The notes under the pieces were generated by a model. The model made no database searches, was not told the DNA's origin, and was given only the letters and a program-made list of their open reading frames with translations. A DNA stretch of 64,000 nt. Origin: a virus. The position numbers were made by a program, and so were the translations under genes. The DNA lies in the IMG/VR virus record IMGVR_UViG_3300017917_002560, positions 1-64,000 of that record; one strand, 5' to 3'. Below are positions 25,361-42,795 of the stretch, piece after piece; the first letter of the stretch is position 1, and each line of letters starts with the position of its first letter.

Positions 25361-26122
25361 TTAAGATGTAACGTTGTCTACGATACCCAAATTGATACCA
25401 GTTTGAGCTGTACCTGACTTGATCACAGTGCCTTCGTCTGTGAAGAAGTTGGCAACATAACGAACATCGTTTGTTACTTCGGCTTGTGTAAAGCCGTTAC
25501 CACCAGTAAAGTCAAGCAAGAACTTGTTGGTCAACTTGCTGAGTGGAGTAGCTGTACTGTCGCCAGTTGATTCAGTGAATGTAATAGCCATCAAGCCCGC
25601 CGCTGGAGTTACGTCATTGTCTAGTACACATACGCCAACTGAATTAGCAACACCGTCACCGGCACCGCCAACTGAAGTAGCTGTAAACACATCACCAACA
25701 CCAGCACTTGCGGGTGCGCCAGCCAATGTCCAGTTGGTTGTTGTGCCTAGAGTAGCAATTTGATATGCTTGACCAACCACAAAGCTGCCGTCGTTGACAC
25801 CAGTGGTATCGCCCACTAGATACTTACGTGACCCTTTCTGACGGATGATATATCCGGCAGCAACACCAATGCCTGTGCCGTCGGATGCGGCAATGTTAAC
25901 AATTACATCAATTCTTGGATTTGTTGCAGTAGGTGCGTCTGTAGGTGCCGCTCCACCAACTACACCTAGGTACTGAGTACCACTTAGTGTGTCAGCAGTG
26001 TTGACCACAGGGTTGGTCAAACTAGCAAAGTTTGGAAAACCTAAGTCAATACCTACGGCTGCGCCAGGTGAACCTTGGCCAGAATTAGCTGAATATTTTT
26101 GAATTTTGAGAGGACGTCCCAT
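25361..26122 (-). CDS. Virion structural protein (253 aa)
   Basis: A 253-aa Gly/Thr/Val-rich protein. MGRPLKIQKYSANSGQ at the start and an IIRQKGSRKYLVGDTTGVND segment at about residue 115 are shared by a family of abundant virion proteins in cyanophages and other aquatic T4-like phages, probably decoration or tail-surface proteins. The start at 26122 is chosen because a purine-rich AAAGGAGA site lies before it; the frame extends 27 nt further upstream. It has its own late promoter and a strong terminator just downstream, so it forms a monocistronic late unit, consistent with high expression. Exact location in the particle is unknown. Confidence 0.65.
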   Translation of the reverse strand: MGRPLKIQKYSANSGQGSPGAAVGIDLGFPNFASLTNPVVNTADTLSGTQYLGVVGGAAPTDAPTATNPRIDVIVNIAASDGTGIGVAAGYIIRQKGSRKYLVGDTTGVNDGSFVVGQAYQIATLGTTTNWTLAGAPASAGVGDVFTATSVGGAGDGVANSVGVCVLDNDVTPAAGLMAITFTESTGDSTATPLSKLTNKFLLDFTGGNGFTQAEVTNDVRYVANFFTDEGTVIKSGTAQTGINLGIVDNVTS

Positions 26123-26215
26123 TTTGTTTTCTCCTTTAAAGAAGCCCAATGCGGGTTCTAGCCGCTACGCGGTGGGTTTTAAGCTCCGCATAAAACGCAT
26201 TATTGCGTTGACTTG

Positions 26216-27416: not shown

Positions 27417-27422
27417 TATAAT
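27417..27422 (+). promoter_or_regulatory. -10 element of the tRNA
   Basis: A perfect TATAAT ends 8 nt before the first base of the tRNA, so transcription would begin almost exactly at the mature 5' end. No clear -35 is seen at the usual distance. Confidence 0.45.
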
Positions 27423-27430
27423 ACAAACAT

Positions 27431-27504
27431 GCGCTAGGCCCGTATGGTACGGGAGAAGCCTCTAAAACTTCCGATAGTGGGTTCGATTCCCATCTAGCGC
27501 ACCA
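27431..27504 (+). tRNA. tRNA with anticodon CUA (amber suppressor type)
   Basis: A 74-nt cloverleaf with encoded CCA. The acceptor stem GCGCTAG/CTAGCGC is a perfect 7 bp, and the discriminator is A. The D arm is CCCG-TATGGTA-CGGG. The T arm is GTGGG-TTCGATT-CCCAT with the conserved TTCRA loop. The anticodon arm is GAAGC-CTCTAAA-ACTTC: with U33 at 27461 the anticodon is CTA at 27462-27464, reading UAG. Oddities: only one base (G) joins acceptor and D stems, so the usual U8 is missing, and the pair closing the anticodon loop is C-A. There is no long variable arm (5 nt), which excludes Leu, Ser or Tyr types. The amino acid cannot be read from the sequence. Confidence 0.8.
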
Positions 27505-27710: not shown

Positions 27711-28454
27711 ATGATGTATGAATCAAAAATGGTCGCCGCCATTAAAGTAAACGGCAAAGTCCTACGTGAATTCAAGGACACAGTGCATATTCCATTCTCT
27801 AGCGAATATAGCATTTTACTAAAAAACCTCAACACACAACGAGCAGTAGTCAATGTTTTCATTGATGGCGAAAACATAGTACCCAACGGCCTAGTGCTCA
27901 ATGCTGGACAAGAAATTGATCTTGAACGATCAATCAAAAACGGTAACTTAACCGAGGGCAATCGTTTTAAGTTTATTGAACGCACTGGCTCTGTAGAGGC
28001 ACATCGTGGTGTCAAGCTCGAAGATGGTATTGTACGAGTTGAGTTCCAGTTCGAACAACCACGTCCAATTTGGACCAACATCACATATAGCAACAATCAA
28101 ATTTATCCACAAGGTAGTATCCTGCGTGGTATGAACAACAGTGTTGGCCCAGTTGGTTCAGTGACTTGTTCTGCTACATACGACAGCTATTCTGCATCAG
28201 CTACATCAGCCGTTGCCAACGACGTTGGCATTACTGTGCCTGGTAGCAAAAGCACTCAGTCTTTTTCAACTACCTATGTTGGCGTCCTAGAATCAACTAA
28301 GCACACCATGGTGTTTAAACTATTGGGTGGTGAAGCTGTTAAGCAAGCTGTCACTGTCAAGCACAAACCCAAGTGTGTCACATGTGGCAAGCAAAATAAA
28401 GCAACGGCAAAATTTTGTACAGAATGTGGCACGGCTCTAGAAATTTTTGCTTGA
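27711..28454 (+). CDS. Phage protein with C-terminal zinc ribbon (247 aa)
   Basis: The first 110 residues (KMVAAIKVNGKVLREFKDTVHIPF, then VFIDGENIVPNGLVLNAGQEIDLERS) form a beta-rich domain that I believe recurs in many large phages but has no known role. A low-complexity Ser/Thr linker leads to a second beta domain and a C-terminal zinc ribbon with two pairs, CVTC and CTEC (residues about 223-241). It may be a virion or nucleic-acid-associated protein. The start at 27711 (or ATG 3 nt on) follows a strong AAAGGAG site. Its TGA stop lies inside the -35 box of the next promoter. Confidence 0.65.
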   Translation: MMYESKMVAAIKVNGKVLREFKDTVHIPFSSEYSILLKNLNTQRAVVNVFIDGENIVPNGLVLNAGQEIDLERSIKNGNLTEGNRFKFIERTGSVEAHRGVKLEDGIVRVEFQFEQPRPIWTNITYSNNQIYPQGSILRGMNNSVGPVGSVTCSATYDSYSASATSAVANDVGITVPGSKSTQSFSTTYVGVLESTKHTMVFKLLGGEAVKQAVTVKHKPKCVTCGKQNKATAKFCTECGTALEIFA

Positions 28455-28583: not shown

Positions 28584-28612
28584 CACGACCGTAACTTTTA
28601 AAGGAGATCAAA

Positions 28613-29161
28613 ATGTCGTAGATTGAATATGCTTGCAAGGACGTAGTGTTCCATTTTAACAAAAAACACTTAGAAGACGAGACCATTCCTATGTGGGTCT
28701 TAAAAACACATGGAGAAACTTTTTATGTTGATCATGTCGAAGCTGACATGTCATGGAGTACAAAAGAAACGCCCAATAACTCACACACCAAAGGCAGTAT
28801 CAAGTTCAAAGAAGTGTTGCTTCAAATTGACGAGCACAACTGCGCAAAGTTAAGCAAGCTATCTGTAATTGACAAAATTCGCTTGCGCAATCAAAAGCTA
28901 GGCATTACTCGAATCTTATTTGGGTGGAACAGCGACATCCATAAAGCATTAAAAAACAATGAGTTCAAGCACAGCCCTTTTAAAAATGTCGAGGGAGCAT
29001 GCGGCACTAGCTATGTTGTATGTGACTTGTTGAAAAAAGAAGAAGCAACGTTTGCTGGGTTGAAATATCATTTTCGTGTGCTGATGCCAAACGAAATGTA
29101 TTATCAGTTCTACGACAGCAAGGAAAAGTATATCGATGAGATATACGAAGACGACGACTAA
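28613..29161 (+). CDS. Early protein with in-frame UAG at codon 3 (182 codons)
   Basis: The ribosome-binding site AAAGGAG (28600-28606) stands 6 nt before ATG-TCG-TAG-ATT-GAA. After the TAG at 28619-28621 the frame stays open for 179 codons to TAA at 29161. The codons just after TAG read IEYACKDVVFHFNKKH, smoothly continuous with the rest, so the protein seems to begin before the TAG. The only in-frame start beyond it is a GTG at 28646 with AAGGA just 4 nt away, giving a 171-aa product that loses the first strand. The protein is acidic, ends in EIYEDDD, and has THGETFYVDHVEADMSWSTK and a conserved-looking GSIKFKEVLLQIDEHNC stretch; function unknown. The phage's CUA tRNA lies 1.1 kb upstream. 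Alternatives are a sequencing error, a GTG start with a two-codon leader, or a population variant. Confidence 0.7.
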
Positions 29162-42306: not shown

Positions 42307-42795
42307 AAGTCTTAACTATTCATAAAGCTCAATGCTTCTAGAACTTCTTCGAAGTTCTATTGATTCGCTATCGCTCATCAATATTTTTTTTATTTGAATT
42401 ATAACGCGAAGCGTTTAAGCTATCATCCAGATTAATTGGTCACACTTTGCCCGCACAGGGCAAAGATTGTTCTGTAGCATCATCCGAGTAGCACAGTCAC
42501 TTAGCGTTAGAACTACATTACTTTCGTAATACACAGGCGGTTGTCCGGTACCTGCTCGTTCCGTCTTTCACAACGGCGGGGCGATATCTATACGCTAACA
42601 TACATATCGTCCGTGTAGCATCACTGCTACGTCTTTTTAGCTTTTTTAAATTCTGTTCAAACAGCAAAACCGCAAGCATTTCGCGATCGTCGTCCGGTCA
42701 AGGATAGTTGCTGAGTGCTCACTGGCGCGGTGAGTCTTCCATCCCTGCGATCCGAGATCCAGGTCTAGGGCACACGAGTTAGGCCTGTGCTAGCC
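42307..42795. ncRNA. Hairpin-rich non-coding region, possible structured RNA
   Basis: 489 bp with no supportable gene on either strand, unusual in a genome packed to overlaps. Perfect hairpins: TAGAACTTC/GAAGTTCTA (42339-42359, 9 bp, 3-nt loop), AACGC/GCGTT (42403-42415), CTTTGCCC/GGGCAAAG (42445-42465, 8 bp), ATTAC/GTAAT (42517-42530), GTAGCA/TGCTAC (42615-42630, followed by T-runs), CTCAC/GTGAG (42718-42734). No tRNA T-loop or known RNA family could be recognised. It could be a structured RNA, an intron remnant beside the GIY-YIG gene, or an insertion scar. Confidence 0.4.
42615..42638 (+). terminator. Intrinsic terminator of the gp26/amidinotransferase operon
   Basis: GTAGCA-TCAC-TGCTAC followed by GTC and TTTTT, then a second run of six T at 42642-42647. 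It lies about 310 nt after the last gene of the rightward operon. Confidence 0.6.

Follow-up and report, generated by a model that had tools for sequence, protein, structure and literature searches.

The window analysed here, a stretch of 64,000 nucleotides, forms part of G000, a virus record of 138,095 bases that we attribute to a large freshwater phage. ARAGORN finds a sole tRNA in the window, on the plus strand, and reads its anticodon as CTA (the label 'Pyl' that the program attaches to it is merely its name for this anticodon). The tRNA and the features around it are the following:

27417..27422, plus strand: TATAAT, a -10-like box read from the sequence, with the transcription start expected close to the tRNA's first base
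27431..27504, plus strand: putative amber-decoding tRNA, anticodon CUA, with encoded CCA and a C31.A39 mismatch (ARAGORN, Rfam)
27711..28454, plus strand: intervening gene between the tRNA and the target gene, with a C-terminal zinc ribbon; a conserved neighbour; from the sequence we took ATG 27711 as its start
28600..28606, plus strand: Shine-Dalgarno (SD) sequence AAAGGAG, positioned for ATG 28613 (sequence)
28613..29161, plus strand: proposed target gene, ATG-TCG-TAG-ATT-GAA..., encoding 182 residues if the UAG is read, with a predicted beta domain and ferredoxin-like part
28619..28621, plus strand: in-frame amber codon at codon 3, the proposed decoding site, invariant in relatives

The tRNA folds into a cloverleaf with CUA at positions 34-36, as required of an amber suppressor tRNA, and scores 41.5 bits against the Rfam model RF00005 (gathering cut-off 29). 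More specifically, the acceptor stem (GCGCTAG/CTAGCGC) is separated by a single linker base (G) from the D stem (CCCG/CGGG), whose loop contains GG; the anticodon arm (GAAGC-CTCTAAA-ACTTC) has a 5-bp stem whose last pair is the C31.A39 mismatch; the variable region is 5 nt long; and the T arm (GTGGG-TTCGATT-CCCAT) is followed by the discriminator A73 and the encoded CCA. An earlier reading of the locus, made from sequence alone, had claimed the CUA anticodon, the encoded CCA, the one-base linker and the mismatch closing the anticodon loop, and all four held; the pseudo-tRNA score that it named as a refutation did not occur. Its -10 box set for a start at the first base of the tRNA also held: TATAAT is a perfect -10 that ends 8 nt 5' of that base. 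A good -35 box is absent upstream, the best having four mismatches. The tRNA is isolated, lying about 98 kb from the other tRNAs of G000, some 40 of which are found at 125-138 kb. The tRNA is thus genuine, and we consider it likely to be a working amber suppressor; its transcription, charging and decoding of UAG are inferred, and the promoter-like sequence upstream is suggestive only.

Other structured RNAs were observed in these records. Rfam matches in the window comprise a Polynucleobacter-1 RNA (42659-42795, minus strand, 114.5 bits) and a freshwater-2 RNA (26120-26210, minus strand, 72.1 bits), and a GOLLD RNA lies inside the tRNA cluster both in G000 (about 134.3-134.8 kb) and in contig L077 (14321-14781, minus strand).

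An IMG/VR search that used the product of the neighbouring gene (27711-28454) as query returned 65 loci, the majority of which have a CUA tRNA close by. A search for CUA tRNAs by pattern only was misled by false matches from tRNA-Arg(TCT), and ARAGORN confirmation was therefore applied wherever a locus was available. From these IMG/VR loci, later loci and cultured phages we compiled 66 distinct CUA tRNAs. Three anticodon loops occur among them (CTCTAAA, TTCTAAA and TTCTAAC), all 66 genes encode the CCA, and G1-C72 (66/66), C2-G71 (65/66) and A73 (65/66) are nearly or fully invariant. Acceptor pairs 3-7 and T-stem pairs switch type jointly, a compensatory pattern that meets the stem criterion for a suppressor tRNA. 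The 31-39 pair that closes the anticodon loop is mismatched (C.A, A.C or C.C) in 54/65 CUA tRNAs versus 13/439 other tRNAs, and U8 is missing in half of the CUA tRNAs versus 36/467 others. The other tRNAs come from the retrieved records, and the 31-39 counts are not corrected for kinship. Most relatives of the window tRNA have a linker of two bases. TTGACA/TATAAT (at most two mismatches) is placed for a start at the tRNA in 31 of the 66, with 0.46 expected in mononucleotide shuffles. Since these features recur in 66 distinct CUA tRNAs they are more than chance, and we conclude that the odd body of this tRNA is a maintained trait.

The sequence-only reading had further noted that TAG ends genes at 472, 29158 and 50185, which held, and had proposed controlled partial suppression rather than a full reassignment. 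For genes that are conserved between genomes, TAG is the stop in 3/69 in G000 and in 2.3-6.5% over all eight genomes tested. In-frame TAG throughout many genes, the mark of genetic code 15, was not seen, and in the five genomes scored none of the TAG-ending ORFs of at least 100 aa continues into a coding-like extension, as programmed C-terminal readthrough would require. The persistence of TAG at the ends of conserved genes, together with the lack of coding-like extensions, argues against wholesale reassignment and against ordinary C-terminal readthrough; we read TAG as not reassigned here. Partial suppression is supported, in that TAG is still a stop and an early-TAG gene is found (see below); expression and charging remain inferred. 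We also rejected the idea that the tRNA causes the rarity of TAG stops, as they are similarly rare in G005, where no CUA tRNA was found. A TAG between the prohead protease and scaffold genes of G002 proved to be an ordinary junction: other genomes have TAA there, and the TAG abuts an SD. Separately, the gene at 50185 matches a late sigma factor family, which points to T4-like late transcription.

A search for in-frame stops within conserved genes gave one clear case alone, the phage IscU gene of G003 (65423-65809), which was later met in phages where no CUA tRNA was detected. In all, 23 contigs (L301-L325 without L308 and L310) carry in IscU a 9-nt insert, TAG-NNN-GGN, after a GGN codon in the active-site loop (PACG^DVMKL), and the first inserted codon is TAG in 23/23. 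Removal of the insert restores the usual sequence, and the arrangement resembles a short translational bypass. The large records G027 and G030 yielded no CUA tRNA.

In the window, an in-frame TAG overlooked by the sequence-only reading sits 1.1 kb downstream of the tRNA, at 28619-28621. The first gene after the tRNA opens with ATG-TCA-TAG-ATT-GAA in G002 and with ATG-GCA-TAG-ATT-GAA in L042, and a search with this first-gene protein led us to recognise the window copy. It reads ATG-TCG-TAG-ATT-GAA-TAT..., with 179 sense codons open past the TAG and a TAA stop ending at 29161; the mechanical ORF list began it at GTG 28646, and we read the actual start as 28613.

We then counted early TAG codons in the 80 best relatives from IMG/VR, 79 of which have their N-terminus covered. 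A TAG stands a few codons past the ATG in 79/79, never replaced by TAA, TGA or a sense codon; it immediately precedes the aligned Ile codon in 77 and is displaced by one codon in the other two. In most copies 2-4 codons form the leader before it, and in a few 9-12. Over the 57 distinct aligned sequences (61-79% protein identity to the window) the TAG is invariant, a property shared only by the codons of M24, W25, K28 and W45, and the codon preceding it varies freely (AAA, CAA, TCG, TCA, GCA, GCC and others). We also scanned eight genomes for an SD and ATG followed, after no more than 12 codons, by a stop of any kind and then a long open frame. The target family was recovered in six, with TAG every time, and no other family recurred in these eight genomes for TAG, TAA or TGA. 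It is very likely that the target of the tRNA is the gene at 28613-29161 with its TAG at codon 3, the decoding itself being inferred.

An alternative is that the UAG closes a regulatory leader mini-ORF (ATG-NNN-TAG), that the protein begins at the post-stop ATT or at an internal GTG, and that the CUA tRNA is linked to the gene for some other reason. In favour of this, almost all close relatives have ATT, ATC or ATA as the codon after the TAG, and AUU is a known, though rare, start codon. The majority-codon fraction is moreover higher in codons 1-20 (0.73) than beyond (0.52-0.62), a possible RNA signal. Against it, the SD lies 8-9 nt from the ATG in most copies and 15-42 nt from the post-TAG codon, and the latter is AAC in Rhizobium phage RHph_I1_18 and ACC in XacN1 and RAS14. 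The V9 codon is GTG in 28 of the 57 sequences, GTC in 20 and GTT in 7, so no internal start is conserved; the residues conserved between the TAG and V9 are I1, E2, A4, C5 and D7. The mini-ORF also leaves unexplained the exclusive use of TAG and the link to a CUA tRNA, and we regard it as unlikely.

A second alternative, ribosome bypass or frameshifting at the UAG independently of the tRNA, draws support from the IscU genes described above, whose in-frame TAG resembles a bypass site in phages where no CUA tRNA was found; such events may therefore exist here. However, no matched take-off and landing codons of the T4 gene 60 type flank the target TAG, the codon before it varies freely, and the frame does not change across it. 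This explanation appears very unlikely.

In records of at least 100 kb, a CUA tRNA is present in 24/24 with the target gene versus 1/5 without it (Fisher p = 2e-4), the exception, G007, being a 102-kb fragment. The records are related and not independent, so the p-value overstates independence; for several of them (G records) the CUA call rests on the pattern plus an ARAGORN run on that contig's locus. The tRNA lies upstream of the target gene and within 3.8 kb of it in 44/57 distinct loci, often within 300 nt and nine times under 50 nt. In the cultured RHph_I1_18, an unannotated short ORF beginning MSEFM-TAG-NESCREVIFHFNKAHL... ends about 33 nt before an annotated tRNA-Pyl(cta). In Agrobacterium phage Atu_ph07 and Sinorhizobium phage Phosso the target domain ends a larger protein and has no TAG; a CUA tRNA was sought in both phages and not found, and the Atu_ph07 paper gives an opal suppressor as the only suppressor tRNA. 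Similarly, a Paenibacillus contig has a target homolog without TAG and no CUA among its 12 local tRNAs. In a wider search, with labels corrected by eye, the early TAG is present in 69/77 homologs and absent in eight; L636, L641, L642, L644 and L657 were counted as lacking it, an SD and ATG following their TAG. Five homologs without an early TAG (L598, L636, L641, L642 and L644) nevertheless have a CUA tRNA nearby, and the coupling is therefore strong but not absolute. For the TAG-bearing records L591, L592, L606, L631, L645, LR745206 and L663, a CUA tRNA was not verified with the tools used.

Other cultured phages revealed a second family with the same arrangement. Scanning XacN1 for an SD, an ATG and an early stop gave a single coding-like TAG candidate, GAGGATTAATACC-ATG-AAG-TAG-ACC-ATT, with just two codons before the TAG. 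The gene is annotated from a later ATG as ORF364; from motifs, without a profile search, we take its product to be of the HD type (HDIGKP), with a C-terminus like Pth2. Its homolog in RAS14 begins ATG-AAG-TAG-ACC, and a TAG is found two to four codons into a separate Pth2-like gene in ME3, XbC2, Kaldavass, CBB, GAP32, Arash and pT24; in Arash the gene at that place is annotated as a peptidyl-tRNA hydrolase. ARAGORN identifies a CUA tRNA in all nine (in Salmonella phage Arash it is the tRNA annotated as Phe at L571 1916-1990), which are jumbo phages of Xanthomonas, Stenotrophomonas, Acinetobacter, enterobacteria and Tenacibaculum.

Two further observations concern these genes. A second in-frame TAG occurs within the HD gene (LDTG-TAG-GDPVLLEV) of XbC2, CBB, GAP32 and Kaldavass (L568, L569, L570 and L575). 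Outside the window, G000 encodes at 129305-129936 (minus strand) a small RF-1-domain (GGQ) protein adjoining a Pth2-like gene without TAG.

A third alternative is that the tRNA acts broadly, weakening termination at host UAG stops in the course of infection, partnered by a tmRNA or GGQ protein of the phage for ribosome rescue, with the early-TAG gene as one effect of many. A permuted beta-type tmRNA does score over the cut-off in 19/23 records of the clade (L195-L213), G000 encodes an RF-1-domain protein, and TAG is rare as a phage stop. On the other hand, the tmRNA is shared by large phages in which no CUA tRNA was detected (G027 and G030), for which reason we rejected it as a specific partner, and none was found in G000. 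TAG is equally rare in G005, which lacks the tRNA, and an early TAG kept invariant in a single gene would not be expected from broad action. We consider this explanation unlikely as well.

The target protein itself gives little indication of function. It has no Pfam, PHROG or NCBIfam match, no significant match among PDB sequences and nothing at E<=0.001 in a Foldseek search against PDB; its one match in BFVD is an uncharacterised phage protein. AlphaFold2 predicts (mean pLDDT 84) a beta domain at about residues 1-80 and an alpha/beta part at 82-168. The nearest structural neighbours of the predicted alpha/beta part are ferredoxin-like domains at low Z, the top Z by VIA-align being 5.8 and for the C-terminal part only. 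Given these weak or absent structural matches, we claim no fold family for this protein.

The sequences themselves show the tRNA and the UAG, that both are conserved and that they occur together. From this we propose, as the likely interpretation, an amber lock on a single gene that is opened by the phage's own suppressor tRNA; charging, decoding of the UAG and timed gating are inferred, and expression is not shown. Ribosomes would initiate at ATG 28613 and, without the tRNA, RF1 would terminate after two residues, leaving no useful product. Once tRNA-CUA accumulates, a fraction of ribosomes would decode the UAG as an amino acid and produce the 182-residue protein. As only two residues precede the stop and no useful partial product results, the arrangement would switch the gene on or off, without yielding two forms of the protein. 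Which amino acid is inserted is not settled: an isotype check by similarity to other phage tRNAs gave no clear answer (nearest Met, Thr, Arg and Phe). By the known identity elements of tRNAs, A73, U35 and a short variable arm leave room for lysine and lower the likelihood of glutamine, tryptophan, leucine and serine.

On a bolder reading, towards which we lean with some reserve, this is a natural amber lock-and-key, in which large phages that are not related to one another each retain a suppressor tRNA dedicated to licensing one early-UAG gene, with at least two unrelated target families (beta/ferredoxin-like and HD/peptidyl-tRNA hydrolase) and the conserved 31.39 mismatch tuning the tRNA. Weighing against the proposed lock on the window gene itself, the target protein has no known function and the reason for gating is unexplained.

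Amber suppressor tRNAs have been reported before in phages that do not reassign TAG. The jumbo phages XacN1 (PMC5852040) and RsoM2USA (PMC8504454) likewise have a CUA tRNA, many tRNAs and normal TAG stops, and XacN1 contains a relative of the window gene at 27711-28454. The XacN1 authors tested predicted genes at their amber stops but identified no target for the suppressor tRNA. The early-TAG gene offers such a target, and because its TAG lies so early, searches of annotated genes miss it. We found no description of a phage amber-tRNA/target pairing in the open-access literature searched (subscription journals were not covered).

The tRNA for pyrrolysine is also a dedicated tRNA that reads in-frame UAG in particular genes, and it shares the one-base linker with the window copy. 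However, tRNA-Pyl has no GG in the D loop, a 3-nt variable loop and a 6-bp anticodon stem, whereas the window tRNA has GG, 5 nt and 5 bp, and its criteria are not met. In code-15 phages (crAss-like and others, with TAG read as Gln; PMC9523058, PMC10607447), a phage CUA tRNA likewise alters the meaning of UAG during infection. There TAG is inside many genes, whereas in the present phages it is confined to one gene family per genome and still terminates genes. There is also a likeness to a suppressor-tRNA feed-forward loop engineered in E. coli (PMC7969014), in which an amber codon in the gene and a controlled suppressor tRNA form a tight translational switch, as proposed here. That loop is a laboratory design, and to our knowledge the switch has existed only as an engineered device, with no natural version. 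If our reading is correct, the window would hold its natural counterpart, directly testable in cultured phages.
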